Shown: piece after piece, positions 3,089 to 63,221 of the stretch
Position numbering within the stretch: position 1 is the first letter of the stretch
Layout of the letters: every line of letters starts with the position of its first letter
Assembly (NCBI RefSeq): GCF_014652795.1
Contig: NZ_BMZM01000001.1
Coordinates: 806,001 to 870,000 of the forward strand
Reading direction: 5' to 3'
From: Kushneria pakistanensis
GTDB lineage: Bacteria; Pseudomonadota; Gammaproteobacteria; Pseudomonadales; Halomonadaceae
Length of the DNA: 64,000 nt
Notes under the pieces: model-generated
The model's input: only the letters and a program-made list of their open reading frames with translations
Databases searched by the model: none
What the model was told of the DNA's origin: nothing
Program-made: the position numbers and the translations under genes

Positions 3089-5023
3089 TCAGCGCTGCAG
3101 TGCGCCGCTATAGCGTGTCGTGCGTTCGTGCTCTGTCATCATGTGAACCCCCTCGGTGGAGCCTTTTGCCAGCCCTTCAAAAATGGCGCGATAGGTCAGC
3201 ACTGCCTGAACGTATTCGCGCGTTTCACGAAAGGGAATCTCCTCGATAAAGAGATCAAAGGGTTCGTCACTCTGCGCCAGCCAGCGATCCACACGGCCGG
3301 GGCCTGCATTGTAGGCAGCGGATGCCGCAATGCGATTGCCGCTGTAGCGTGCTGCCATGTCCCGGATGTAGGCGCTGCCCAGCATGACGTTGGTCTCCGG
3401 ATCCTCAAGACTGGAGACGCCCTGCCATGGCACGCCAAGCTGCTGGCTGACATGCTGCCCTGTGCCGGGCATCAGCTGCATCAAACCGCGTGCGCCGACC
3501 GGTGACTGTGCCTGCGGGTTAAAGGAGCTTTCACGCCGTGCCAGTGCCATGAGAAGCCACGGGTCAATATTGCGTGACCGGCCCCACTTCTGGAAAAGCT
3601 CGGCATAGCCCTGCGGGAATCGCCAGTTGAGCGCATTCCAGTGGTCGCCGCGAATGGCGGCATAAATGGTCAGGTCATACCACTGCTGGGTAAGAGCATA
3701 TTGCGTCAGGGTCGGGCGTTGCGCGCTGGGTAAATGACGCATCAGATAGTACCACTCGGCGCGTGCCAGCCCCGGCTCGTTGATGCGATACAACGCAGCA
3801 ATCCGACGCATCGAGGGCAGGGCAGCGGCGTCCTTCAGATCATGTTCAGCGATCGTGACCCTTTCATTTTCAAGTGCGTAGGGCTGATTAATACGATCGG
3901 CCGCGGCGAAACCGAAGAAGCTGCGTTGTCCGGCCGCGATCTGCCATGCCTGGCGGGCCTCTGCCTCGTTGCCCAGCTGCTGGCGGGCGCGGCCCAGCCA
4001 GTATTGCCAGTGGGCATCATGACGATCGTCTTCCTCCATGCGCTCGATCCAGGTCGCAACCTCGTTCCACTGGCGATGCTCAAGCGCCTTGCGCGTGCGC
4101 AGCTCCAGCAGGTCCTGATCGCCCAGCTCGGCGGCAGCAGCATCGGCCCACTGGGCGTTGGCACTGATATCACGCACCAGCGAATAGAACGCCAGGTCGT
4201 GTTCGATGTCGTGTTGCTGTTCATCGGTCAGCGGTGCACGAGATTTGATCTCGCGCCAGGCTATCAGTGCCTGAGCCGTGTTCTGTCGGGTGAGGCGTGC
4301 CATGGCGGTGCTGTAGAGTGAGGAGACGCCCTGGGCATTGTTGTTGACGAGTCCCGGCAGTTCAGTGATGCGTCCGGGATCCCCCTGCAGGCGTTCAAGT
4401 GCGGTGCGCTGGGGCTGCCAGTCAGTTGGCAGTTCGCCGGGCAGATAGCGCATCATGGCGTCGTCTCCTGCGCGCCAGGCGAGCATGGTTCGCGCCCAGA
4501 CATCGGCGCCGGTAATGGCGCCATTGGCGCGCAGGCGCTCAAACAGCGGATCGCAGGCGGCAGGTTGTGAATGACCGACCAGCCATAGCTCGCGCCCGCC
4601 AATGGCGGCACGCTGTGGCGCCTGGTTCAAAAGGGCGCGATAGTACCAGCACTGGCGAGTGGTACCTTGCGGCACGCCATCGCTGATCGCCAGGAAATCG
4701 TCAAACTGCTGACGAGACCCCCAGGCATCCTGTGCCACACCCCGCATCCACTCGGAAAGTACCGAGTCCTGATGGCGCTTGAGGTAGTCATTGATGACCG
4801 ACGGTGATACACCCGGCAGGCGCGACTTGAGTTCGTGATATTCGACATAGCCTTCCAGCACGTGGCCGCGAATACCGTCATGGTCGATTTGTTGCCACTG
4901 CTGGGCGCGAGCGGCCTCAAAGGACCGGTTAAAGCTTTCGTCACTGGCCAGCGCCGGCGCGGCAAGACCGGCTGCAAGGATGACGCCCAGCCAGCGTCTG
5001 GATAATGTCTGCGTGAACCCCAC
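3089..5023 (-). CDS. slt: Soluble lytic murein transglycosylase
   Basis: About 644 residues, matching the Slt70 family length. It cleaves the MurNAc-GlcNAc bond in peptidoglycan, forming 1,6-anhydro ends, and acts in the periplasm. The protein starts with a signal peptide ending around AAGLAAPALASDE, followed by a long alpha-superhelical region and a C-terminal lysozyme-like SLT domain with the catalytic Glu in MALARRESSFNPQAQSP and the GLMQLMPGTG and AYNAGPGRVDRW motifs. I chose the GTG at 5023 because AGGAG lies 8 bases upstream; a GTG two codons earlier is also possible. It is transcribed alone. Confidence 0.93.
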   Translation of the reverse strand: MGFTQTLSRRWLGVILAAGLAAPALASDESFNRSFEAARAQQWQQIDHDGIRGHVLEGYVEYHELKSRLPGVSPSVINDYLKRHQDSVLSEWMRGVAQDAWGSRQQFDDFLAISDGVPQGTTRQCWYYRALLNQAPQRAAIGGRELWLVGHSQPAACDPLFERLRANGAITGADVWARTMLAWRAGDDAMMRYLPGELPTDWQPQRTALERLQGDPGRITELPGLVNNNAQGVSSLYSTAMARLTRQNTAQALIAWREIKSRAPLTDEQQHDIEHDLAFYSLVRDISANAQWADAAAAELGDQDLLELRTRKALEHRQWNEVATWIERMEEDDRHDAHWQYWLGRARQQLGNEAEARQAWQIAAGQRSFFGFAAADRINQPYALENERVTIAEHDLKDAAALPSMRRIAALYRINEPGLARAEWYYLMRHLPSAQRPTLTQYALTQQWYDLTIYAAIRGDHWNALNWRFPQGYAELFQKWGRSRNIDPWLLMALARRESSFNPQAQSPVGARGLMQLMPGTGQHVSQQLGVPWQGVSSLEDPETNVMLGSAYIRDMAARYSGNRIAASAAYNAGPGRVDRWLAQSDEPFDLFIEEIPFRETREYVQAVLTYRAIFEGLAKGSTEGVHMMTEHERTTRYSGALQR

Positions 5024-5220
5024 CCGCACAACTCCTGTCAGCCATCAATATGAACATGCCTTTGACAGGCATACTGCGTCTCTGGGGCCTAGACTAATCC
5101 AGGTGGCTGGATTTAACGATCCCGTCATGACGATCTTTGGTTCCTGCAGCGTTAAGCGGATATGGCTTCATGCAGTGAACGGTCTTTCCGACACCACATT
5201 TTTATCTGGAGCATCCATCC

Positions 5221-5547
5221 ATGGCAAAAGGTCGACTCAACCCCATTGGTCTGATTCGCGGCCGTGGTCGCATCTACCTGCGCATATTCAAGGCGCTGCG
5301 CACGTTTTTTCCGATGATGAACGACTGGCGCAAGGGCCGTTATCGACCGCTGCCCAAAAAGGCAGTAGGACTGATGGCGCTGGCCGTCGTCTATGTGGCC
5401 AACCCGATTGATCTGATTCCGAACTTCATTCCCTTCTGGGGACTGCTGGATGATCTCATCATCGGTGGCTGGCTGCTGGCCAAGCTTGATGAGGAGCTTG
5501 ACGACTATCGGCAATGGCGCGAGACCCAGGCTACCCCCACCACATGA
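5221..5547 (+). CDS. YkvA family (DUF1232) small membrane protein
   Basis: A 108-residue protein with the YkvA/DUF1232 core: a hydrophobic helix LMALAVVYVANPIDLIPNF followed by a short turn FWGLLDDLIIGGW. NPIDLIPNFIP is the family hallmark. The N-terminus is basic and probably cytoplasmic. GGAG lies 9 bases before the ATG. Function of the family is unknown. Confidence 0.8.
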   Translation: MAKGRLNPIGLIRGRGRIYLRIFKALRTFFPMMNDWRKGRYRPLPKKAVGLMALAVVYVANPIDLIPNFIPFWGLLDDLIIGGWLLAKLDEELDDYRQWRETQATPTT

Positions 5548-5601
5548 TGTCGGATCACATCCGAATACTCGCAGCGCGTTGATGGATGTCGAGCGGTTTC
5601 T

Positions 5602-5629
5602 CTTGAAAAACCGGTAACTTCCCCCATAA
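5602..5629 (+). promoter_or_regulatory. Heat-shock (sigma-32 type) promoter of htpG
   Basis: CTTGAAA at 5602-5608 and CCCCATAA at 5622-5629 are separated by 13 bases, which matches the gammaproteobacterial RpoH consensus (CTTGAAA, 11-16 bases, CCCCATNT) almost exactly. It lies about 93 bases before the htpG start, a normal leader length. Confidence 0.85.
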
Positions 5630-5721
5630 CGGGTAACACACCGCACGGCGGGGCCTGCCCGGGTGGCAGGCTGCACCCTGTGTTTCACCCTGTTGGTTAT
5701 TGTCAGAAGAGAAATGTTGCC

Positions 5722-7605
5722 ATGACGAGTGCGCAAGAGCAGACGCTCGGTTTTCAGACCGAAGTCAAACAGCTTCTTCACCTGATGATTCATTCCCTGT
5801 ACTCCAATCGGGAAATCTTTCTGCGTGAGCTGATCTCCAACAGTGCCGATGCCTGCGACAAGCTGCGCTACCGCGCACTGGAAAACGATGGCCTGTATGA
5901 AAATGATCCGGAACTGCGTGTCGAGATCGAATTTGATCACGATGGCAAAACGGTCACGATCCGGGACAACGGTATCGGCATGAATCGCGAGGATGTGATT
6001 GCCAATCTGGGCACCATCGCGCGCTCGGGCACGGCCGAGTTTCTCAAGCAGATGTCCGGCGAGCAGCAAAAGGACGCCCGCCTGATCGGTCAGTTCGGGG
6101 TCGGTTTCTATTCGGGCTTTATCGTGGCCGATGAAGTCGTGGTGCGCACGCGTCTGGCCGGCACGCCGCATGAGCAGGGCGTGGAATGGCGCTCGAAGGG
6201 CGAGGGTGAATTTACCATCGTCGATATCGAGCGCGAAAAGCACGGCACCGAAATCGTGCTGCATCTCAAGGAAGATGCGCTCGAGTTTGCCGACGAGCAT
6301 CGCTTGAAGTCACTGGTGCGCAAGTACTCCGACCATATCGAAGTGCCGGTGCGCATGCCGACCGTTCAGGAAGGTGAGGGTGACGCCGAGGCGACCGTTA
6401 CCTGGGAAACCGTCAACGAAGCGCAGGCACTGTGGGTTCGTCCCAAAAGCGACGTCAGCGACGACGAGTACAAGGCGTTTTACAAGCATGTGGCGCATGA
6501 TTTCAGCGATCCGCTGACCTGGAGCCATAACCGGGTCGAAGGCAAGCTTGAGTACACCAGTCTTCTCTATGTGCCTGCACGTGCACCGTTTGATCTTTAT
6601 CAGCGTGAGGGGGCTCGCGGCCTCAAGCTCTATGTACAGCGGGTATTCATCATTGATGATGCCGAGCAGTTCCTGCCGCTCTATCTGCGCTTTATCAAGG
6701 GCGTGGTCGACTCCAACGATCTGTCGCTGAACGTTTCGCGCGAAATCCTCCAGCAGGACCCGCAGGTCGAGAAGATGAAGGGAGCGCTGACCAAGCGCGC
6801 GCTCGATATGCTCAGCAAGCTGTCAAAGGACAGCGAGACCTATCAGAACTTCTGGAACCAGTTTGGCGGTGTGCTCAAGGAAGGCCCGGCGGAAGACCAC
6901 AGCAACCGTGAAAAGATCGGTGGTCTGCTGCGCTTTGCCAGTACGCATACGGACAGCAGCGTGCAGGATCAGTCGCTGTCTGACTATATCGCCCGCATGA
7001 AGGACAATCAGAAGGCGATCTATTACATCATCGCCGACAGCTTCAATGCTGCGCGTCACAGCCCGCACCTCGAGATTTTCCGCAAAAAGGGCATCGAGGT
7101 ACTGCTGCTGTCCGACCGCATTGATGAATGGCTGATGACCCATCTCACCGAGTTCGACGGCAAGTCAATGGTCGATATTACGCGCGGTGATCTGGATCTG
7201 GGCGAGATTGATAGCGAAGAAGAGAAGCAGGCGCAGCAGGAAAGTGCGAAGGCCAAGGAAGGACTGGCCGAGCGTTTCCGTGAGGCGCTGGGCGATCAGG
7301 TACAGGAAGTGCGGGTCACGCATCGTCTGACCGAGTCACCGGCCTGTGTCGTACTGCCGGAAAACGAAATGGGCTATCAGATGCGCCGTCTGATGGAGGC
7401 CGCCGGTCAGCCGGTGCCCGAGGTCAAGCCGATCCTTGAGTTCAACCCGGATCATGCACTGATCTCAAGGCTTGAAGGTAGTAACGGTGAAGCCTTTACG
7501 GATCTGGCGCATGTGCTCTTTGATCAGGCCGTGATCGCTGAAGGTGGTCAGCTCGATGATCCTGCCGCCTATGTGCGTCGTCTCAATGCCATGTTGACCC
7601 ACTGA
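5722..7605 (+). CDS. htpG: Molecular chaperone HtpG (Hsp90)
   Basis: A 627-residue bacterial Hsp90, an ATP-driven cytoplasmic chaperone dimer. The GHKL ATPase domain holds [13 protein letters not shown] (Asn that coordinates magnesium), IRDNGIGMN and the lid glycines in [11 protein letters not shown]. The middle domain contains the catalytic Arg region [14 protein letters not shown], and the C-terminal dimerisation domain follows. I chose the ATG at 5722 (MTSAQEQ) because it matches the family N-terminus; the frame extends upstream without similarity. Regulation by heat shock is strongly suggested by the RpoH promoter. Confidence 0.97.
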
Positions 7606-8633: not shown

Positions 8634-8673
8634 TTTTCAGGGATGGTGCGTGTTCATTGCCAGAGGTCATGGC

Positions 8674-10101
8674 TCAGTGTGGCTGTAGCGGTGGCCAGGT
8701 CACGGTCACGATCAGCCCATGCGGCTCACGGTTATGGATAACGAGCGTGGCCTGTTGCCGCTGGGTCAGCTGTTTGACGATGGAAAGTCCAAGACCGCTG
8801 CCGGTCATGCGCTGATTGGCGCGATGAAAGCGCTCGGTGATCTTCTCGAGTGACTCAGCAGGAACGCCTGGGCCATCATCGATGACCTGAATCATCGGTT
8901 GGCCTTGTATCCTGTCCAGATGCAGCATGACCGTGCCGCCATCGGGGGTGTAGCGCAGAGCGTTATCCAGCAGATTGCGCAGCAGCACCCCCAGCTCTGT
9001 TGGGTCGGCACGCACTTCAAGAGCGGACAGTCCGCTCATCTCCAGCTGCTGCTGACGATGACTGGCCAGCGGCCACATCTCACCGGCCAGCTGCGACGCA
9101 ATGGGATAGAGATCCACGACATCCTGCTGGCGCTGTGGTGATCGTTCCACGCGCGCCAGGGTCAGAAGCTGATCCACCACCCGCTGCAAACGCTCGATGC
9201 CCTGGCGTGCCTTGTCCAGTGAGCTCTGATAGTCCTGCTCGCTGGCGCGAGCGTTATCCAGATGAATCTTGAGACCCGCCAGTGGTGTGCGCAGCTCATG
9301 CGCGGCATCGGCCGTGAAGCGCCTTTCCCGGTCAAGCGCCATGCGAAGCCTTTCGATAAAGGCATTGAGGGAATCGCGAAGCCCCCACAGTTCCTGAGGC
9401 GGGGCCTGCTCGATGGGGGTAAGGTCCTGGTGATAACGCCGGGCGACTTCGGCAGACAGATTGTCGATGGGACGCAGGCCGCGACGAATGACCCACCAGA
9501 GCGCGAAGCCCAGAAGGGGCAGTATCAACAGGAAGGGAATGCTGTTGCCCAGCAGAATCTTGCTGACCAGTTCCTGCTGAAAATCCTCGCGCAGCCCCGT
9601 GGAAACCCAGACACCATGCTGCTCGTCGTAGATGCTGAACACGCGCCAGTTTTCACTGTCATAGGTGACCCAGCGATAGCCGGTCTCCTTGGGAGGCGGG
9701 AAGGGGCCGTTATCATTCCACTCGGCACTGAGCATGCGCGGCGAGCGGTCACTGTTCCAGAAACCCAGCGACAGGAGGCGTTCTTCCTCCCGAAATCGCT
9801 GTGGCGTGTTCACGGAGTGGGTATCCATGACGATACCCGAGGTGTCATCTTCTTCCATGCTATAAAAGCGCGCCGCATGGCCGGGCTGGGTCAGGCGATC
9901 CGCCAAGGCCTGGTAGTCCTGCGAATCCATGTTGATATCGATCATGCCGGTCACGATGCGCCCGAACTGGGAGAGCTGCGCGTCAAACATCTCTTCAAGC
10001 TCATGCCTGGTGATCAGCCACGCCGCCAGACCCGAGAGGATAGCGCCCAGCAGTACCAGTCCCATGACGGCCCGTGTCAGGTAGCGACGAATCGAGGTCA
10101 T
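8674..10101 (-). CDS. Sensor histidine kinase, QseC/PmrB-like
   Basis: A 475-residue inner-membrane kinase. Helix 1 spans about residues 12-31 and helix 2 about 183-205, enclosing a periplasmic sensing domain of ~150 residues; HAMP follows to ~256. The phosphorylated His is His268 in RFTADAAHELRTPLAGLK. The ATPase part shows the N box (NLLDNALRYTPDGG), G1 (VIDDGPGVP) and G2 (GSGLGLSIVKQL). Its ATG overlaps the stop of the response regulator gene by ATGA, the standard arrangement of a coupled pair. The signal cannot be read; relatives sense metals, catecholamine-like molecules or peptides. Confidence 0.92.
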   Translation of the reverse strand: MTSIRRYLTRAVMGLVLLGAILSGLAAWLITRHELEEMFDAQLSQFGRIVTGMIDINMDSQDYQALADRLTQPGHAARFYSMEEDDTSGIVMDTHSVNTPQRFREEERLLSLGFWNSDRSPRMLSAEWNDNGPFPPPKETGYRWVTYDSENWRVFSIYDEQHGVWVSTGLREDFQQELVSKILLGNSIPFLLILPLLGFALWWVIRRGLRPIDNLSAEVARRYHQDLTPIEQAPPQELWGLRDSLNAFIERLRMALDRERRFTADAAHELRTPLAGLKIHLDNARASEQDYQSSLDKARQGIERLQRVVDQLLTLARVERSPQRQQDVVDLYPIASQLAGEMWPLASHRQQQLEMSGLSALEVRADPTELGVLLRNLLDNALRYTPDGGTVMLHLDRIQGQPMIQVIDDGPGVPAESLEKITERFHRANQRMTGSGLGLSIVKQLTQRQQATLVIHNREPHGLIVTVTWPPLQPH

Positions 10102-10760
10102 TCGATCTTGTCGTCCAGGCGGTAGCCGATCCCCCGCAGGGTCACGATCAGGTTGCTGTCCAGCTTCTTGCGCAGGTGGTGAATGTGCACCTCCAGCGCA
10201 TTGGATTCGATCTCGTCACAGCAGCCGTACAGCAGCTTTTCCAGATGGGGGCGTGTGAACACCTGGCCGGGATGCTGGGCCAGCTCATGCAGGAGGGTAT
10301 ATTCACGCCGACTGAGCTTGACCAGTCGCTCCTTCCAGCTGACCTCGTGGCGGGCGTGATCGATATGCAGCGGACCGATCCTGATACTCTGCTGTGTGCG
10401 ACCACCCTGACGGCGGCTGATGGCGCGCAGTCTGGCCTGCAGCTCATCCACATCAAAGGGCTTGAGGACGTAGTCGTCGGCGCCGGCATCAAGCCCCTGA
10501 ATACGGTCTTCCAGACTGTCGCGAGCCGTCAGGATCAATACCGGAACATCGTGGGCAGCGCGAATCCGACGCAGCACTTCCATGCCATCAATGCCGGGAA
10601 GCCCCAGGTCAAGAATGACGGCATCGATCTGGCCGCGTTCAACATGCTCAAGCACACCTTCACCTTCGGTCAGCCATGTGACCTGATGACCCTCACGACG
10701 CAGCGCCGTCTCGATACCATCGCCCAGCAATACATCATCTTCGACAAATAATACCTGCAT
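10098..10760 (-). CDS. OmpR-family response regulator, QseB/PmrA-like
   Basis: A 220-residue transcription factor: receiver domain with acidic pair Asp8-Asp9, phosphorylated Asp51 (VILDLGLPGIDG) and Lys100 (DYVLKPFD), then a winged-helix DNA-binding domain (LSRREYTLLHELAQHPGQV, ending in RGIGYRLDD). I chose the ATG at 10760 (MQVLFVEDD) because receiver domains start there; the frame extends 59 codons upstream without homology. It is the first gene of the pair, transcribed with the kinase. Targets are unknown; divergent gpsA is 251 bases away. Confidence 0.92.
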   Translation of the reverse strand: MQVLFVEDDVLLGDGIETALRREGHQVTWLTEGEGVLEHVERGQIDAVILDLGLPGIDGMEVLRRIRAAHDVPVLILTARDSLEDRIQGLDAGADDYVLKPFDVDELQARLRAISRRQGGRTQQSIRIGPLHIDHARHEVSWKERLVKLSRREYTLLHELAQHPGQVFTRPHLEKLLYGCCDEIESNALEVHIHHLRKKLDSNLIVTLRGIGYRLDDKIE

Positions 10761-11011
10761 GTTGAGAGAGTCCTGATCAGAACGTTGCATGGCTGGCATA
10801 GCGCCACCCGGATGCAATGATGAATGATGGTGTAATGTTCTCATGATCCTTGTCCCTTGTGTTGATGCAAGCCATTGATTCTGCTTTCTGACCTCGAAAG
10901 CGGCCATTGGTGCCCGCAGGCGTTGTCGAACGGGCATGACGCTGCGTTACGTCTGTGGCCGGTCAGGGGTTACACTAAAGCCTGCCTATCGTCGATCAAC
11001 AAGGATTATCC

Positions 11012-12118
11012 ATGGCAGCCGAGCATCAGTCGCAGGCCAGTACAGATGATATTCGTGTGCCTCCGGTGGCCGTGCTGGGGGGCGGCAGTTTTGGCACCGC
11101 ACTGGCCAGTATTGCCGCCACTGGTGGCGCCAGAGTACGCCAGTGGATGCGCGACGCAGATCTTGTCGAGCATGTGAATACCCATCATGTCAATCATCGC
11201 TATCTGCCTGACTTCAGCATTCATCCTGATGTTGTGGCTTCTACCGATCTCGCCTGGGTGCTTGAAGAGGCGCTGCTGGTGCTGGTGGCCATCCCTTCCG
11301 GCGGCTTTCGCCAGGTCGTGCGTCAGGCGTCGCCCTATCTGGCCCCTGATGCCATCGTGGTCAGTACCACCAAGGGCATCGAAACCGACAGCTTCCTCCT
11401 GATGAGTCAGATTCTGGAGCAGGAAACCCACAGTGCGCACATCGGCGTGCTTTCGGGGCCGAACCTGGCGGCTGAAATTGCGCAGGGACATCTGAGTGCC
11501 AGTGTCGTGGCCAGCAACGATGAGCAGACCCGTTCGCGGGTGCAGGCAGCGCTTTCGTGTGATCATTTTCGTGTCTATGCCAGCAATGACCGCTATGGTG
11601 TTGAAATGGGTGGTGCGCTCAAAAACATCTATGCCATTGCCGTGGGCATGGCGGCAGCGCTTGGCATGGGCGAAAACACCCGCAGCATGCTGATCACTCG
11701 GGCGCTGGCCGAGATGAGCCGCTTTGCGGTGGCGCAGGGCGCCAATCCGATGACCTTTCTGGGGCTGGCCGGGGTCGGCGATCTGATCGTGACCTGCTCC
11801 TCGAACCTGTCACGTAATTACCGGGTAGGTTATGCAATGGGCGAAGGGCGAACGCTGGATGAGGCCGTCGCGGCGCTGGGTCAGGTCGCCGAAGGCGTCA
11901 ATACGGTATCGCTGATTGTCAGGCGGGCCAGCGAGGAGAATATCTACATGCCGCTGGCCACCGGGCTTTATCGGGTCATGTTTGAAGGCGTCGCACCGCG
12001 GGAAATGGCCACGGCGCTCATGCGCAGTGAACAGAGTAGTGACGTTGAATTTACGCTGCCGCGAGAGGATACGCGGCGTGCTCAGCAGCAAACTGCAGCC
12101 AGGGATATTTCATCATGA
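11012..12118 (+). CDS. gpsA: Glycerol-3-phosphate dehydrogenase [NAD(P)+]
   Basis: A 368-residue cytoplasmic enzyme reducing dihydroxyacetone phosphate to sn-glycerol 3-phosphate for phospholipid synthesis. The Rossmann motif is [25 protein letters not shown] and [20 protein letters not shown] carry the substrate-binding and catalytic lysines. It is about 30 residues longer than the E. coli protein, with a polar extension at each end. AAGGA precedes the ATG. Its stop codon overlaps the start of sixA (ATGA). Confidence 0.95.
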
Positions 12119-12621
12119 AGATCTATGTAATGCGCCATGGGGAAGCCGCTTCCGGAACGCCCGACGCGCACCGGCCATTGGACACTACCGGGCAGAAGGA
12201 AGTTGCCAGTATTGCTGACTGGTTTGTCTCGCAGCTGGGCGACAGGGGGCGTCAGCTCAGGATTGTGGCCAGTCCCTATGACCGTGCCCAGCAGAGTGCC
12301 AGCATTATCGCCCGGGCGCTGCAGGTGGATGACATCATGACGCTGCCCATCATGACACCGGATGTGCCGCCCCAGACGCTGATCGAGTGGCTGACACACA
12401 ATGTCGATCCACAACATGATGATACGCCCTGGCTGTTTGTCAGCCACATGCCGCTGGTGGCAGAGCTGGTGGGCCAGCTGGTGGATGGTGGGCCCAACGC
12501 GCGCCTGCCCATGGGCACGGCGGATGTGATCGAGCTGGACGCGCAGGTATGGGCGGCCGGATGCGCGACGCTGGTACGCCATGTCACGCCGGCGACCGCC
12601 GCACTCGATAACGGCGCCTGA
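12115..12621 (+). CDS. sixA: Phosphohistidine phosphatase SixA
   Basis: A 168-residue member of the histidine phosphatase superfamily. The catalytic motif is at the very start ([11 protein letters not shown], nucleophile His8), and the second catalytic His is His111 in [11 protein letters not shown]. SixA dephosphorylates histidine-phosphorylated proteins, including the phosphotransfer protein of the nitrogen PTS in E. coli. It is translationally coupled to gpsA, an arrangement that suggests cotranscription and perhaps a metabolic link. Confidence 0.9.
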
Positions 12622-12630
12622 ACCAGGATG

Positions 12631-12654
12631 ATGGCGGGCGTGTCAGCCCGCCAT
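12631..12654. terminator. GC-rich palindrome at the sixA / AEC carrier junction
   Basis: ATGGCGGGC, a 6-base loop, then GCCCGCCAT. The loop and right arm overlap the stop codon of the convergent AEC gene. There is no T run, so it is probably a bidirectional hairpin that blocks or protects both 3' ends. Confidence 0.55.
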
Positions 12655-13596
12655 ACCACTGATCTGTAGAATAAAAATGCCCAGTGTGATGGTGACACTG
12701 CTGGCAAGTGTCGTAATGGCCACTGTGTTGGCGGCAAGCCTTGCATTGCCGCCCATGGCTCTGGCCATCACAAAGCTGGCGGCCGCTGAGGGGCTGCCCA
12801 GAAACAAAAAGAGCAGCACCAGTTCCCGCCCCTCAAACCCTGCCAGCCAGGCGATGAGTACCGTCGCTGTCGGCATCCATACCATCTTCATCAGACTGGC
12901 GCCAAGCGCTACGCCGCTGGCCTCGCGAATGGCCGTCATCGACATGGTACCGCCAATGCTGATCAGCGCCAGCGGCAACGTCATGTTGGCAAAGTACTCG
13001 CCCGAGGTGTGCAGCCAGCTCGGTAGGGCAAGGCCACTGGCCGCAAAGGAAAGCCCCGCCACCACGGAAAGGATCAGCGGATTTTTAAGGATCTTGAGTC
13101 CGATGCTGCGCCAGCTGGTCTTGGCCTGTGGCTGATACCAGGCCAGCACAATGACGGCCAGTACGTTATAGAGCGGGATGAGGGTGGCCACCAGCACGCT
13201 GCCGGCAGATAGACCAAACTGCCCATACATGCTGCCTGCCAGCGCCAGCCCTATGATGCCGCCATTGCCCCGAAAGGCCGCCTGTACATAGACACCGCGG
13301 TCTTCAGGAACGACGACTCGTCGGGTGGCCCACCACCAGATCAGCAGAAAACTTGCCACTGTTGCCAGTGCCAGATAGGCCATCAGGCTCGGTATCAGTG
13401 CCTGCGACATGTCGGCATCGATCAGGGATAAAAAGAGCAGGGTGGGCATGGCGCCACGGAAAACCAGCGCCGAACTGGTATTGATAAAGGCAGTGTCGAT
13501 CCATTTGAGACGCTTGAGGGCCACGCCCAGAAGCACCATGGCAAAGACAGGAAACGTCACGTTCAGGGTTTCAGCAAAAATGGCTGACGGGTTCAT
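12643..13596 (-). CDS. AEC family (auxin efflux carrier-like) transporter
   Basis: A ~317-residue inner-membrane carrier with about ten helices in two halves, typical of the AEC family. The first helix contains LNVTFPVFAMVLLGVALKRL and the family Asn-rich entry INTSSALVF. Bacterial members include malate and malonate carriers, but substrate cannot be assigned. I prefer the ATG at 13596 (MNPSAIFAET); a start 12 codons upstream remains possible. It is transcribed towards sixA. Confidence 0.85.
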   Translation of the reverse strand: MNPSAIFAETLNVTFPVFAMVLLGVALKRLKWIDTAFINTSSALVFRGAMPTLLFLSLIDADMSQALIPSLMAYLALATVASFLLIWWWATRRVVVPEDRGVYVQAAFRGNGGIIGLALAGSMYGQFGLSAGSVLVATLIPLYNVLAVIVLAWYQPQAKTSWRSIGLKILKNPLILSVVAGLSFAASGLALPSWLHTSGEYFANMTLPLALISIGGTMSMTAIREASGVALGASLMKMVWMPTATVLIAWLAGFEGRELVLLFLFLGSPSAAASFVMARAMGGNARLAANTVAITTLASSVTITLGIFILQISGMAG

Positions 13597-13707
13597 GCAG
13601 ACATACCATATGGCGACAGGGCGCCATGACATTGTGGCGCTTCCACGAATCCGGCCCGAGAGAGGCCGATCATGAAAAGGACCGGTGGGGAAGTCGTATC
13701 AAAAGCG

Positions 13708-13794
13708 CTAGAGCGTTAGAAAGCCCGTGATCAGGCCGGCCAGCACGACTGCAAAAAAGAGACGGTTGCGCAGACGGCGGGAGGCATCAGACAT
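13708..13794 (-). CDS. Possible 28-residue single-helix membrane protein
   Basis: A very short frame encoding a basic N-terminus (SDASRRLRNRL) followed by one hydrophobic helix (FFAVVLAGLITGFLTL) that runs to the C-terminus. GGAG lies 9 bases upstream of the ATG, a good ribosome binding site. Gammaproteobacteria carry many such small inner-membrane proteins. It stands in a 417-base gap with no other gene. No family is recognised; it may be a real small protein or chance. Confidence 0.45.
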   Translation of the reverse strand: MSDASRRLRNRLFFAVVLAGLITGFLTL

Positions 13795-14013
13795 GCACGA
13801 CTCCAAAGCAGATGAGCCAAAGGGAGCGCCATCATACGCGTCAGGGGTAGGTGGAGCGACCCGAAATTCCTGTGACACTCGGTCGCGATATGGCGTGTCC
13901 TTGTCGGATACGCCTTCGGGCACGTTGCTCGATTCGCCGGGCACGACACAAAAAGTGCATCGCATCCCTGGTCGTCGTATTGTTTCGGGTTTGATGACGA
14001 TGGAGCGAGCAGG

Positions 14014-14892
14014 ATGAGTGCAAGACCGCGAGAGTGCCGTTTGGCCGATAACCGCCTGGCCGGTCTGGTATGGGAGCGGGAAGGTCTGTCAGTGGAGGCA
14101 CCGACCTGGGTGGCCCTGCATGGCTGGCTGGACAATGCCGCAAGCTTCACACGACTGGCACCACTGCTGGTGGAAAGACTCGATATTCGTATCGTCGCCA
14201 TCGACTTTGCAGGTCACGGCAAGTCCCAATGGCTGGGCAAGGGGACCGATTACGCGCTGTGGGACTATATCCACGATGTGCTGGATACGCTCGATGATCT
14301 GGGGATCGAGCGGGCCACGCTGCTGGCCCATTCGCTGGGCGCCTGTGTGTCATGTCTGCTGGCTGCAGCGCTGCCCGAGCGCATTGAGCGTCTATGGCTG
14401 ATTGATGGCATCGGCGCATTGACCACGCCGGTCGAGCAATCGACACGTCAGCTGCGCAACGGTGTGCTGGGCGTGCGTCGTCCACTCTCACCGCCGCCGT
14501 CCTACTCGAGTCTTGAAGCAGCGCTTGAGGCGCGCGTAGCCGGGGCCATCACGCCACTGGATCACGATACCGCCGAGCCCTTGATCGCCCGCAGTCTGGT
14601 GCAGGATGACACGCGAATGCGCTATCGCACCGATCCGCGGCTGCTGCGCCCCTCGCAGGTCAAGCTGACGCCCGAGCAGTCACGCGACATGCTGCTGGCC
14701 ATCCAGGCGCCGGTTGATCTGATCGAGGCGGAAAACGGCATTATCGGCAATCATCTGGATCGTGAAGGGGTGCGTCACGAGATGGGCACCCTGACCACCC
14801 ACCACGTGCCCGGCGGGCATCATCTTCATCTTGAGCCGCAAAGCGTGGTGGGGGTGGCTGACGTGATCCTCAGGGTCTACGGCGTGGCGTAA
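14014..14892 (+). CDS. Alpha/beta hydrolase
   Basis: A 292-residue alpha/beta-hydrolase fold enzyme. The oxyanion-hole region is ALHGWLDNAASF, the nucleophile elbow is LLAHSLGACVSC (Ser), an acidic residue follows in the cap half (LIEAENGIIG), and the catalytic His is in HHVPGGHHLHLEP. The sequence resembles the esterase group that includes mammalian serine hydrolase-like proteins (SERHL). The substrate is unknown. Its 3' end overlaps the convergent smr gene by 16 bases. Confidence 0.85.
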   Translation: MSARPRECRLADNRLAGLVWEREGLSVEAPTWVALHGWLDNAASFTRLAPLLVERLDIRIVAIDFAGHGKSQWLGKGTDYALWDYIHDVLDTLDDLGIERATLLAHSLGACVSCLLAAALPERIERLWLIDGIGALTTPVEQSTRQLRNGVLGVRRPLSPPPSYSSLEAALEARVAGAITPLDHDTAEPLIARSLVQDDTRMRYRTDPRLLRPSQVKLTPEQSRDMLLAIQAPVDLIEAENGIIGNHLDREGVRHEMGTLTTHHVPGGHHLHLEPQSVVGVADVILRVYGVA

Positions 14893-15461
14893 TCCTCACG
14901 CGTGCGGCGCAGCAATACATAGACGGCACCGGTGCCGCCGTCCCGGTCCTGCGCCGAGCAGAAGGCCAGCACTTCGGGGAGTTCACGCAGCCAGGCATTG
15001 ACGTGACTCTTGATAACAGGGTAGCGCGCCGCGCCTGACCATGCCTTGCCGTGCACGATCAGCACGCAGCGCGCCCGGTTGGCCCGCGATTCGTGCAGAA
15101 AGGCCTCAAGTTCAGTGCGAGCCTGCTCAAGGTCGTAACCATGAAGATCCAGGCCCGCCTGCCAGGCAATCGTCCCGCGTTTGAGCTGGGCAAGCGTTCG
15201 ATGGGGCAGGTCGCTCAGGGCAAACATGAGCGCCTCCGAGGGACGGACCGGATCGACACGCCCGTCGGAGGTGCGAGAAGAGGTTGCCGTTACCGTATTA
15301 CCGTTGCTGGCCGCTGCCTCGCGGCGATGGCGCAGCTCGCCGTGTCGTGGCGTGCGGCCGATATCGGCGCGATCGTGACGAACAGGGCGAATATCGCTGC
15401 CCTGCATGGCCTCGCGAAAGGCTGCCCGGTCGTCATCGTCAGGTTGGCGGTTACCGGCCAT
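14877..15461 (-). CDS. smrB: Smr domain endonuclease, SmrB-like by position
   Basis: A ~194-residue protein with a polar N-terminal region and a C-terminal Smr domain. The DLHG motif is GLDLHGYDLEQARTEL; the second motif is LIVHGKAWSG, where most family members have HGKG; the final strand is GTGAVYVLLRR. SmrB in E. coli cuts mRNA at collided ribosomes. The assignment rests on synteny (divergent from prmB-aroC, as in E. coli) as well as the domain. I chose ATG 15461 (MAGNRQ) because GGAGAGAAGG precedes it; ATG 15494 has no such site. Confidence 0.8.
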   Translation of the reverse strand: MAGNRQPDDDDRAAFREAMQGSDIRPVRHDRADIGRTPRHGELRHRREAAASNGNTVTATSSRTSDGRVDPVRPSEALMFALSDLPHRTLAQLKRGTIAWQAGLDLHGYDLEQARTELEAFLHESRANRARCVLIVHGKAWSGAARYPVIKSHVNAWLRELPEVLAFCSAQDRDGGTGAVYVLLRRTREDYATP

Positions 15462-15647
15462 GCCTTCTCTCCGCTGGAAGTTTTTGTCCGTCATGTTGAT
15501 CGGGGCGTCGACATCATGGATTCAGGTCGGTGAGTATAGGGAATCGGCTGCCAATGTGCAGGCATCCGGCGATGCGCCGATACGGGATAACGGGTACACT
15601 TTCGACCTTTGTCCCTTTCACTACCACTCGACAAGGCCGCCGCATTC

Positions 15648-16616
15648 ATGAGCGACGTTTCTGCCCGCATGCCTGTACCCGCCGCCGCGCCACTCTCTCT
15701 GGATGATGACACCCTGATCGATGAGCTGGTCACCGTGCGTGATTATCTGCGTCTGGCGGTCAGTGTCTTCAACGCGCACGATCTGTATTACGGACATGGC
15801 ACTGACAGCGCCTGGGATGAAGCCGTGGCGCTGGTGCTGGGCGCGCTGCGTCTGCCCCATGATGTTGACCCTGCCATTATCGATGCCCGCGTCCTTCGTA
15901 TCGAGCGCGCCCGCATTATTACGCTGTTGCGTGCCCGTGCGCTGGAGCGTCGCCCGCTGCCGTATCTGCTGGGGGAGGCCTTCTATGCCGGTTTCCCCTT
16001 CAATGTCGATGAGCGCGTGCTGATCCCGCGCTCGCCGATCGCCGAGCTGATCGAGTCGGGCTTTGATCTGTGGTTTGAGACGCGCGATCCGGCGCATATG
16101 CTTGATCTTTGCACCGGTTCGGGCTGTATCGGCATTGCTGCAGCCCTGATGATGCCCACGACCCATGTCATGCTCGCCGACATCAGCGAAGACGCCATTG
16201 ATGTGGCGCGGGCCAATATTACCCGCCACGACGTCGGTGCCCGCGTGAAGGCGGTGGCCGGTGATCTCTTTGCCCCGGTGGCCGGCCAGCGCTTTGATCT
16301 GATTGTCAGCAACCCGCCCTATGTGGACGCCGGGGATCTGGGCGGCATGCCGGCCGAGTTCGGTCATGAGCCGGCGCTGGCGCTGGGCGCCGGCGACGAT
16401 GGGCTGGATATCGTTCGACGCATGCTGCGCGAGGCGCGCGATTACCTGACCGACGATGGCGTGCTGCTTGTCGAGGTCGGCAATTCCGAGCGCCACGTGA
16501 TCGAGACCTGGCCCGAAGTGCCTTTCCTGTGGCTCGAATTCGCCCGTGGCGGGCACGGCGTATTTGCACTGACGGCCGCACAGCTGGATGAATGGGCGCC
16601 GACGCTGTCGCGCTGA
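15648..16616 (+). CDS. prmB: Ribosomal protein uL3 N5-glutamine methyltransferase PrmB
   Basis: A 322-residue S-adenosylmethionine-dependent methyltransferase. SAM motif I is [17 protein letters not shown], and the glutamine-binding motif is [12 protein letters not shown]. PrmB modifies a glutamine in ribosomal protein L3, aiding 50S assembly; its sister PrmC modifies release factors. PrmB is preferred because of the N-terminal region (RTL-type [19 protein letters not shown]) and position just before aroC. The ATG at 15648 gives a family-like start; an in-frame TTG lies 13 codons upstream. Confidence 0.92.
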
Positions 16617-60751: not shown

Positions 60752-60967
60752 TTAGCCTGCCTTGCGGGCCAGGCCGGCACGATGGAGTTGAAACTCTTCG
60801 ACCATGGCAAGTTCGTAGGCCGCCTGACGAAACTCCTGCATGGTGCAGATATAGTGTCCATTAGGACAGTGTAGTTCGTGATGGCCTGAAGTATGCCCAG
60901 GCCATGAAAGCGGGACATTGCATTCAGGACAACGCGGGCCACCGCGGGAAGCAGTAGTTGGGTTCAT
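60752..60967 (-). CDS. Small zinc-ribbon protein
   Basis: A 71-residue protein with a likely zinc site: Cys13 and Cys16 (PRCPECNV), then Cys34 and His38 (HCPNGHYIC). The C-terminal half is helical (QEFRQAAYELAMVEEFQLHR). A good ribosome site (AAGGGAA) precedes the ATG. The function is unknown; similar ribbons often bind nucleic acids or proteins. Confidence 0.6.
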   Translation of the reverse strand: MNPTTASRGGPRCPECNVPLSWPGHTSGHHELHCPNGHYICTMQEFRQAAYELAMVEEFQLHRAGLARKAG

Positions 60968-61380: not shown

Positions 61381-61465
61381 GCGGGAGTGGTGGAATTGGT
61401 AGACACGCTGGATTTAGGTTCCAGTGCCGCAAGGCGTGAGAGTTCGAGTCTCTCCTTCCGCACCA
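61381..61465 (+). tRNA. tRNA-Leu (anticodon UAG)
   Basis: An 85-base gene with encoded CCA. Acceptor arm GCGGGAG pairs with CTTCCGC; the anticodon stem CTGGA/TCCAG encloses the loop TTTAGGT with anticodon TAG; a long class II variable arm (GCC GCAA GGC) and T arm (GAGAG TTCGAGT CTCTC) follow. It reads CUA and CUG-type leucine codons. Confidence 0.96.
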
Positions 61466-61634: not shown

Positions 61635-61814
61635 TTACTGATCCTGCTCCTGTTGATTAAGTTCCTCACAGGCAGCTTTCGCGGCGTCTTCCGTCGTATA
61701 GGTCGATATTTCCATTTTTGTCCCTTCCAGAAATACGACAAATCCTTCGACGTGATCGTTCTCACCCGTGGAGGTGAATTCTCCTGCTTTGGCATATTGA
61801 TAACGATAAGGCAT
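61635..61814 (-). CDS. Small protein A of a tandem paralogous pair
   Basis: A 59-residue protein, probably cytoplasmic. GGAGG lies 5 bases before ATG 61814. It aligns without gaps to the 71-residue protein encoded 218 bases away: both begin MxYxY, share Phe25, Val27, Glu30, Thr32, Glu42, Ala45, Cys49, Leu52, Asn53 and have an aromatic at 28 and 39. A beta strand (GFVVFLEG) then an amphipathic helix (TEDAAKAACEELNQ) are predicted. No known family is recognised. Confidence 0.6.
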   Translation of the reverse strand: MPYRYQYAKAGEFTSTGENDHVEGFVVFLEGTKMEISTYTTEDAAKAACEELNQQEQDQ

Positions 61815-61986
61815 GGATGCCTCCAGTGAATTGATGCTAGTGGGTGTGCTGTCATAAAAATCAGGGCAACAGCTTCTGTCACGCCATGCCCGTACTGTTG
61901 CATTTGCAGTCGTTTCACTGCATCCGCTCAACGCCACGTTTGGGTCTGTCAGCGGCATGCATCACTTGATAACGCCTGTAATGAAA

Positions 61987-62006
61987 CACCCGGCCATGGG
62001 CCGGGC
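61987..62006 (-). terminator. Likely terminator after small protein B
   Basis: CCCGGCC, ATG, GGCCGGG. On the minus strand it is followed by TGTTTCATT, 26 bases after the stop of small protein B, so it may end that transcript. Confidence 0.6.
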
Positions 62007-62031
62007 GCCCTCCGGTGCTCTACTGTCATCA

Positions 62032-62247
62032 TTACATATCGTTGTCCTGTTCCACGTCCGAGGCGCTGGGATTGCTTGAATCCTCGCGATTGAGCAGGTC
62101 GCACTGCATCCTTGCTTCGTTTTCAGAGGCAAAGATGCCTGACTGATCACCGGTTTCTTCGTCGTAGACGATAAAGCTCTGATCGGTTTCAGCTGCAGCA
62201 GTCGCATCCAGTGCATCCTGTGAAGCCGGTTTATAGGCGTAAGTCAT
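62032..62247 (-). CDS. Small protein B of a tandem paralogous pair
   Basis: A 71-residue acidic protein. It has the same layout as small protein A: MTYAYKPA, then a strand (FIVYDEET), then a helix (SENEARMQCDLLNR), plus an extra acidic Ser/Asp-rich tail (ASDVEQDNDM). GAGGG lies upstream of ATG 62247; the frame is open further upstream without similarity. Function unknown. Confidence 0.6.
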   Translation of the reverse strand: MTYAYKPASQDALDATAAAETDQSFIVYDEETGDQSGIFASENEARMQCDLLNREDSSNPSASDVEQDNDM

Positions 62248-62462: not shown

Positions 62463-63221
62463 ATGACAATCAGCTCAGGATACCCACTGCTGGTAAAAGG
62501 CAGACGTCTTGTTGAAAGGCTTGATCGCACCCTTGCCTGGAGCATGCCGGGATACTGCAGCTTTTGTCTGGCGGGCACTGCAGGCAACAGACCCTGGTGT
62601 GAGCCTTGCTTCAGGGCGTTGTCATGGCATACCAGTGCCTGCCCGCTGTGCAGTGAGCCACGGCCGGCTTCGGTGTCGGGGAGTATGCCCTGTGGTTATT
62701 GTCTGAGGCAGCGACCGAATTTCGATGACAGCTGGGTGCCCTTTCTCTATGAAGGCGAGATTGCGCAGCTGATTCAGCGCTTCAAGTTCCGGGCCGAGCG
62801 CCGCGCTGGCCAGGTTCTTTTGCAGCTCATGCTGCAGGCACTTGAGCTACGTCATGGCCCTCTCCCTGTGCAGGCCATTGTCACGGCGGATCTTCATGTC
62901 AGGCGCGCACGAGAGCGTGGGTTTGATCAGACCCTGTGGCTGGGCAGGCGCATGGCTCGCGCGCTTGATCTGCCGCTGTATCGCGCCACGCGACTTCGCC
63001 TGACGCCAACGCAACGAGGGCTATCGCGCGCTGCCCGACAACGTAACGTCCGGCGCATCTATCATGTGCGCTCACCGCTGCCGGATGCTGTGTTGCTGCT
63101 GGATGATGTCATGACCACTGGTGCCACGCTTGAGGCGCTCTCTCGTGCCTGCCGCGAGCAGGGCGCCCGTCATGTCACTGTCTGTGCGCTTGCCCGTACC
63201 CCGGCGGCACGCGCAATCTGA
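62463..63221 (+). CDS. comF: ComF family phosphoribosyltransferase-like protein
   Basis: A ~252-residue protein. The N-terminal zinc-binding part has four CxxC-type pairs (CSFCLAG, WCEPCF, CPLCSEP, CGYCLRQ), followed by RPNFDDSWVPFLYEGEIAQL, and the C-terminal PRTase fold ends with the PRPP loop AVLLLDDVMTTGATLEALS. ComF proteins take part in DNA uptake in competent bacteria. ATG 62463 gives a family-like length; a GTG at 62349 is an alternative. Confidence 0.85.
   Translation: MTISSGYPLLVKGRRLVERLDRTLAWSMPGYCSFCLAGTAGNRPWCEPCFRALSWHTSACPLCSEPRPASVSGSMPCGYCLRQRPNFDDSWVPFLYEGEIAQLIQRFKFRAERRAGQVLLQLMLQALELRHGPLPVQAIVTADLHVRRARERGFDQTLWLGRRMARALDLPLYRATRLRLTPTQRGLSRAARQRNVRRIYHVRSPLPDAVLLLDDVMTTGATLEALSRACREQGARHVTVCALARTPAARAI

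Follow-up and report, generated by a model that had tools for sequence, protein, structure and literature searches.

Two small adjacent genes of Kushneria pakistanensis, encoding proteins of 59 and 71 residues, belong to a Halomonadaceae family that is undescribed, and unnamed in the libraries searched, and whose proteins are single-domain, mostly acidic and 58-73 residues long. Judged from sequence comparison, the pair appears to represent two old lineages of this family and not a local duplication. The explanation we favour, at a probability of roughly 0.5, is that the proteins are mini-domains that stand alone and bind other proteins, and that they spread with integrating elements and were retained by their hosts. 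Both genes lie near one end of the 64,000-nucleotide stretch of DNA that was analysed, referred to here as the window, together with the following features:

61381..61465, plus strand: tRNA-Leu (anticodon tag), with its 3' end towards the gene pair; one border of a variable slot
61635..61814, minus strand: the 59-residue gene, of a lineage common to genome G050 (where it also lies beside comF) and a prophage gene of another genus
61985..62009, minus strand: strong hairpin, possibly a terminator between the two genes, just 3' of the stop codon of the 71-residue gene
62032..62247, minus strand: the 71-residue gene, of a lineage found in six other Kushneria, where it adjoins a DUF1275 gene and not comF
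62463..63221, plus strand: comF-like gene, divergent from the 71-residue gene; the other border of the variable slot

Both window genes are real, homologous and under purifying selection. Values of dN/dS (Nei-Gojobori, own script) were 0.09-0.35 for 19 of 21 pairs of 71-residue orthologues, the other two pairs being saturated at synonymous sites, and 0.11 for the 59-residue gene and its G050 counterpart. For four distant members carrying Cys49, four of six pairs were saturated at synonymous sites and the other two gave approximately 0.55 and 0.28. Ribosome binding sites were present upstream of both window genes (GAGGG and GGAGG). Throughout the family the starts align and a purine-rich ribosome binding site precedes nearly all of them; the first residue of each protein read out was set to M regardless of the start codon. 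Spurious open reading frames, considered as an explanation, are ruled out by the dN/dS values and the conserved starts. The two genes have a G+C content of 46% and 51%, lower than the 59% of the window.

The two frames (61635-61814 and 62032-62247) are separated by 217 bases and are convergent with tRNA-Leu. BLASTP aligned residues 1-56 of one protein on residues 1-56 of the other, gapless, with 14/56 identities (25%) and 27.7 bits. The local alignment score was 67, compared to 24.5 +/- 4.5 for shuffled sequences (9.6 standard deviations; 0 of 5000 shuffles as high). The identical residues are M1, Y3, Y5, A8, T16, F25, V27, E30, T32, E42, A45, C49, L52 and N53. A preliminary description of this DNA had proposed two coding minus-strand genes of 59 and 71 residues with good ribosome binding sites, paralogous without gaps over 56 residues, and had listed their shared positions. 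The coordinates, lengths, ribosome binding sites and alignment are all confirmed, and the list agrees with the 14 computed identities. The check it set beforehand, that related genomes hold homologues with Cys49 and Asn53 and that codons are conserved, gave a positive answer on both counts: the two residues occur in 15/15 rows of the first family profile, and codon conservation is seen in the dN/dS values. The hairpin at 61985..62009 has a folding energy of -22.1 kcal/mol for a 60-nt piece (z -2.06) and is absent from the list given by the consensus scan. A promoter scan found none, and Rfam gave no match besides the tRNA.

Two profiles were used to delimit the family: A1, made of 15 members, and A2, made of 23 rows, namely the A1 type and eight relatives without the cysteine. 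Searching with A1 at E 0.01 matched 19 of 275 Halomonadaceae genomes, weak matches counted. With A2 at E 0.001, 76 places were found in 56 of the 275 genomes and in 11 of 24 genera, with at most eight per genome; matches to A2's own rows follow from its construction, and the remaining places are new. This extent refers to the Halomonadaceae, and the limits beyond them rest on A1, which matched three of the 369 genomes compared from the class: two Kushneria and one match of 22 residues inside a 681-residue frame, taken as chance. Kushneria indalinina was the sole match in a sequence search of genome contigs. The Cys-containing clade and the eight Cys-less relatives were joined by a profile-profile comparison (hhalign probability 96%, E 4e-9). 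Omitting one place (G014:C1:200311, E 7e-4) left 75 proteins of 58-73 residues, and a further one with an unclear start (G121:C37:1208) was left out of the tree and the column counts, which are based on 74 rows. Matches L015, L020, L024 and L033, judged to be chance or broken, were unused, and L023 was omitted from the first alignments. Of the eight family members in genome G121, three (L180, L182 and L183) are near-identical and lie on different contigs, which suggests recent spread.

The family is marked by a strand with the pattern aromatic-x-V-aromatic, by Thr32 and by Ala45; V27, T32 and A45 are present in both window proteins. Over the 74 rows, Ala45 was found in 74, Thr32 in 72, Gly37 in 69 and Val27 in 68, with an aromatic residue at positions 25 and 28 in 74 rows and at position 39 in 73. 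Position 37 is Ser in the 59-residue protein. Position 53 is more variable (N in 42 rows, K in 23, Q in 6 and others in 3). Most of the family has a hairpin loop YDxDTG, partly kept by the window pair as YDEETG and FLEGTK.

The statement that these proteins belong to no described family held for the libraries searched (Pfam, NCBIfam, PADLOC, PHROGs and PDB). Nothing convincing was returned for the family by Pfam or NCBIfam, nor by the PDB searched by sequence. PADLOC, a library of defence and not anti-defence proteins, gave one weak match in 26 members. The family was named in none of the literature titles found, which does not by itself show that it is absent from print. Two phage families of unknown function matched weakly: PHROG 5619 (10 of 23 members, best E 1.7e-6, profile length 79) and PHROG 23350 (5 of 23 members, best E 4.9e-5, profile length 69). 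These matches span the strand-strand-helix part and the profile lengths are similar to those of the family, but neither window protein matches them at 0.1 and the phage records contain no convincing tblastn match. Undescribed families of small proteins are a known kind, and proteins of fewer than 75 residues are often missed by annotation; here the family is well supported, selected and unnamed, and its unusual location bias is worth a proper test.

The lineages of the two window genes were separated in a tree of the 74 rows, which has few columns, many open forks and a bootstrap that had not settled. The 71-residue gene grouped with six other Kushneria in a clade of 7 (100/100), and the 59-residue gene with those of G050, a G009 prophage and G125 in a clade of 4 (96/85). 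Forcing the window pair together was rejected (p-AU 0.0013, lnL 60 lower), a result to be read with caution given the long end branch of the 71-residue gene. Orthologues of the 71-residue gene were found in six of the nine other Kushneria genomes compared with that of the window (G000), and of the 59-residue gene in one, G050. Each copy resembles its G050 counterpart (88% over 56 residues for the 59-residue protein, 65% for the 71-residue protein) far more than it resembles its neighbour (25%). In G050 the two genes have separate homes: the 59-residue gene adjoins comF, and the 71-residue gene lies at the DUF1275 gene on a different contig. The latter is the usual site, as six Kushneria carry the 71-residue gene approximately 115-140 bp downstream of the DUF1275 gene. 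In G000 the DUF1275 gene is on another contig without the 71-residue gene, which is found at comF instead. The separate homes in G050 and the DUF1275 site elsewhere indicate that the tandem arose by bringing two old lineages together. Between G000 and G050 the 71-residue protein (65%) is more diverged than the DUF1275 neighbour (89%), which fits relocation or import.

The preliminary description had taken the pair for a duplicated unit. A recent tandem duplication in the window genome, with copies that then diverged, would account for two adjacent genes on the same strand that align without gaps. We regard it as extremely improbable, since the joined tree was rejected under the tree model used (p-AU 0.0013), each copy is far closer to the copy of another genome, and G050 carries both genes on two contigs. 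Adjacent paralogues thus need not result from local duplication. The possibility that the two genes form a toxin-antitoxin pair was also considered and rejected, as the proteins are homologous and five of the seven Kushneria with a family member have only one.

The window pair occupies a variable slot on the 3' side of tRNA-Leu. The other border of the slot is a gene that we take to be comF, with weak matches to a double zinc ribbon and a phosphoribosyltransferase, both below the Pfam cut-off; it is present in all ten Kushneria compared (G000 and nine others). Eight of the ten have the interval between tRNA-Leu and comF 3' of the tRNA, and its length differs among them: it is shortest in G000 (about 1.0 kb), followed by G072, G036 and G090 (1.4-1.5 kb), G050 (9.7 kb), G015 and G061 (about 20-21 kb) and G097 (about 60 kb). 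By eye, its contents in G061, G015 and G097 resemble transport and catabolic genes. In the remaining two, G103 and G082, comF is on the 5' side of tRNA-Leu, and G103 has an integrase 3' of this tRNA, confirmed by sequence match to solved integrases. A second copy of the tRNA 3' end (18 nt, at most 2 mismatches) was not found in the window; the G050 locus contains one copy with 2 mismatches. The genes had been described as lying beside tRNA-Leu. This is correct in the window, but not in the nearest relative, G050, where the 59-residue gene is about 9 kb away.

Proximity to tRNA genes extended to the wider family. A tRNA or tmRNA was detected within 3 kb of 40 of the 75 members (ARAGORN, up to 3 kb on each side) and within 1 kb of 23, and 37 of the 40 linked members were on the 3' side of the RNA gene. 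The linked genes were tRNA-Ser (17), tRNA-Gly (9), tRNA-Pro (9), tRNA-Leu (2), tRNA-Met (1), tRNA-Arg (1) and tmRNA (1). Four genomes carry 56-64 tRNA genes each, so the chance of finding a tRNA in a random 6.2-kb stretch is at most about 0.09-0.11 (assuming isolated tRNAs and omitting tmRNA). Grouping members by shared neighbours gave 12 location classes, of which seven had at least one linked member and six were at least half linked; the binomial tails at 0.105 are 7e-5 and 7e-4, respectively. The class rule was set after the pattern had been seen, a few flanking stretches were shortened, and under the single linkage used some distinct sites fall into one class (class 0 comprises several). 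In the Cys clade, the G000 pair alone is within 3 kb of a tRNA.

Eight of the ten members in genus g2 (L167 and L171-L177) are encoded on the same strand as tRNA-Pro(ggg), 143-179 bp downstream of it, so that the family gene may be co-transcribed with the tRNA. Five genomes of genus g19 (L153, L160, L162, L164 and L168) have the gene in a tail-to-tail arrangement with tRNA-Gly(ccc), 28-44 bp apart.

No neighbour was common to all family places, and hence there is no conserved operon partner. A single gene cluster is convergent with 22 members, and another is found near six; the one annotated representative of the first is an Na/H exchanger and that of the second a mechanosensitive channel. The neighbours kept in several genera point to vertical inheritance. 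A distinctly unlikely alternative is that the family is tied to tRNA and tmRNA 3' flanks, those of seven RNA genes, by repeated arrival with integrating elements, and that its members modulate host machinery (CRISPR, restriction or tRNA-linked processes); the window would then show two ancient lineages united at one of these flanks. If the link with tRNA flanks were functional, the family would mark tRNA-integrating elements in halophiles or be a tool that they use.

An association with a mobile element was seen in G009, where the family member is inside a prophage, between the terminase small subunit and the spanin and on the opposite strand; six of ten scanned neighbours match phage families. 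Convincing homologues were not found by tblastn in 50,697 phage records or in 72,556 plasmid records. The best phage match (59-residue protein, Shewanella phage, E 0.2) was inside a 415-residue protein and was taken as chance, and the remaining weak phage and plasmid matches had E values of 3 to 6. Scans of viral contigs found no convincing homologue and gave one match (L209), in which 41 residues match a Cys-less member in an 85-residue frame of otherwise different sequence; it was not counted as a member. In view of these negatives, the mobile-cargo part of the explanation that we favour rests on one prophage and on location. Mobility is suggested by the prophage member, the variable tRNA-Leu-comF interval, the G103 integrase, the low G+C content and the bias towards tRNA 3' sides.

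The usual Kushneria site of the 71-residue gene adjoins a type I-E CRISPR locus. A full array with Cas7 and Cas1 is present in G061 at L063 (G061:C1:1382000-1398000), positions 8653-16001, next to the DUF1275 and 71-residue genes, the latter being at the array end far from the cas genes. Array remnants were found in G050, G072 and G000 (loci L061, L064 and L080), genomes without Cas7; that of G000 consists of three repeats (G000:C2:837443-837592) at the site without the 71-residue gene. Type I-E Cas7 itself was detected in one of the ten Kushneria, and no repeat with at most 7 mismatches was found in the 16-kb loci of G015, G036 and G097, where the 71-residue gene is present. In G125, a family member sits on an 8.5-kb contig (L073, G125:C10:1-8496, positions 4888-5874) that carries a CRISPR array with 28-nt repeats about 4.5 kb away, type I-F by eye.

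These arrangements raise the boldest variant considered, that the proteins would be anti-CRISPR or other anti-defence proteins on mobile elements. They are small and acidic, one member is in a prophage, the usual site of the 71-residue gene borders an array (G061) or remnants (G050 and G072), and another member shares its contig with a different array. Conversely, the gene is kept in six genomes lacking Cas7, the three repeat-free loci retain it, and in other genera the wider family stays at its site, which makes this variant quite improbable.

The fold is predicted to be beta-beta-beta-alpha. AlphaFold2 models were computed from an alignment of three sequences, the two window proteins and the K. 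indalinina protein. The model of the 71-residue protein (pLDDT 76) has a strand at 3-7, a helix at 10-16, strands at 25-29 and 35-39 and a helix at 42-58, and that of the 59-residue protein, from which the first Met was omitted, has three strands and a helix (pLDDT 80). The shape of one strand and one helix proposed earlier does not agree with these models. Fold searches against the PDB and BFVD returned nothing at E 0.001. The best BFVD matches (E 0.02 and 0.4) were mostly uncharacterised phage proteins of similar size, and the best VIA-align match, to a DegV protein, had a Z of 5.0; all matches were weak and none significant.

A functional role of the single conserved cysteine had been hinted at in the preliminary description. 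M1, E42, A45, C49, L52 and N53 are indeed invariant in the 15 rows of A1, and the Cys clade, which contains both window proteins, forms one side of a tree branch (100/100). Over the 74 rows, position 49 is C in 15, R in 21, A in 18, V in 18 and M in 2, so the cysteine is specific to one clade. Its place in the predicted helix, where A45, C49 and L52 are spaced as on a packing face, suggests that in that clade it would serve for packing and not for catalysis or ligand binding. A ligand- or metal-binding unit centred on Cys49 would explain its presence in 15/15 rows of A1, and is very improbable given that 59 of the 74 rows of the wider family have Arg, Ala, Val or Met instead; as a functional centre, Cys49 is unsupported by the column counts. 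The earlier idea of a small ligand- or protein-binding unit survives as protein binding, which from sequence and models is our best guess, and not as a Cys-centred ligand site.

Both window proteins are acidic (pI 4.05 and 4.22, net charge -14 and -8, as absolute values), and one family member has a pI of 6.8. This charge bears on a DNA-binding arm domain, like the N-terminal arm of lambda integrase or an AP2 domain. The order of elements is similar, the model of the 71-residue protein matches the lambda Int arm (2wcc, VIA-align Z 3.9) and AP2 (7et4, Z 4.0), and Pfam Arm-DNA-bind_4 matched one of 23 members at E 0.16, short of the model's cut-off. DNA binding is, however, expected to need a basic surface, so the low pI speaks against it, both 2wcc and 7et4 are absent among the matches listed for the 59-residue model, and a Z of 4 is a value that common arrangements also reach. 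An arm domain is accordingly improbable.

A further possibility, unlikely though less so than the arm domain, is a host accessory protein for stress or osmotic conditions with the shape of YaiA or UPF0339 (DUF1508), its proximity to tRNAs being incidental. E. coli YaiA (2kvt, a 71-residue chain) was matched repeatedly by fold, at Z 4.7 with an rmsd of 4.8 over 58 residues and at Z 4.8 with an rmsd of 4.1 over 52. Small sheet-and-helix proteins that we take to be UPF0339 / DUF1508 entries matched within the common-arrangement range (3bid, Z 3.5; 2k7i, Z 2.7-2.8; 6q2z, Z 3.5), and phage proteins named DUF1508 were among the BFVD matches. The two neighbour clusters represented by an Na/H exchanger and a mechanosensitive channel, one annotated protein each (22 and 6 members), would suit such a role. 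Yet these neighbours are convergent or differ between genera, and sequence similarity to YaiA or the UPF0339 families was not found; the Pfam DUF1508 model was not listed at E 1, at 0.5 (23 members) or at 0.1. All the Z values are weak, those of a Lon chain (9jwa, 4.6 and 4.1) being nearly equal, and for YaiA the Z is too low and the rmsd too high to claim a shared fold.

Similarity to the SPOR domain was also seen: the hairpin and helix of profile A2 aligned with DamX (2lfv; E 0.004), which the broader profile A6 matched at E 0.22. The Pfam cut-off for SPOR (PF05036) was not reached, with matches in two of 23 members and a best E of 0.059. SPOR domains are part of larger cell-division proteins, unlike the free and small proteins of this family.

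In the mechanism that we favour, each protein would have a small transcription unit to itself and would act alone in the cytoplasm, as an adaptor or inhibitor that binds some other macromolecule, most likely a protein. Binding would use the sheet together with the hairpin loop. Elements integrating at tRNA 3' ends probably spread the genes as small cargo, and several genera may have kept them because they help the host.

On the other side of tRNA-Leu, the minus strand of the window at 60752-60967 holds another 71-residue open reading frame, with a zinc-ribbon-like Cys pattern, that matches no Pfam or NCBIfam family over the cut-off. By eye, a close relative of this frame is located near tRNA-Leu in G036 (L113:3254-3466).
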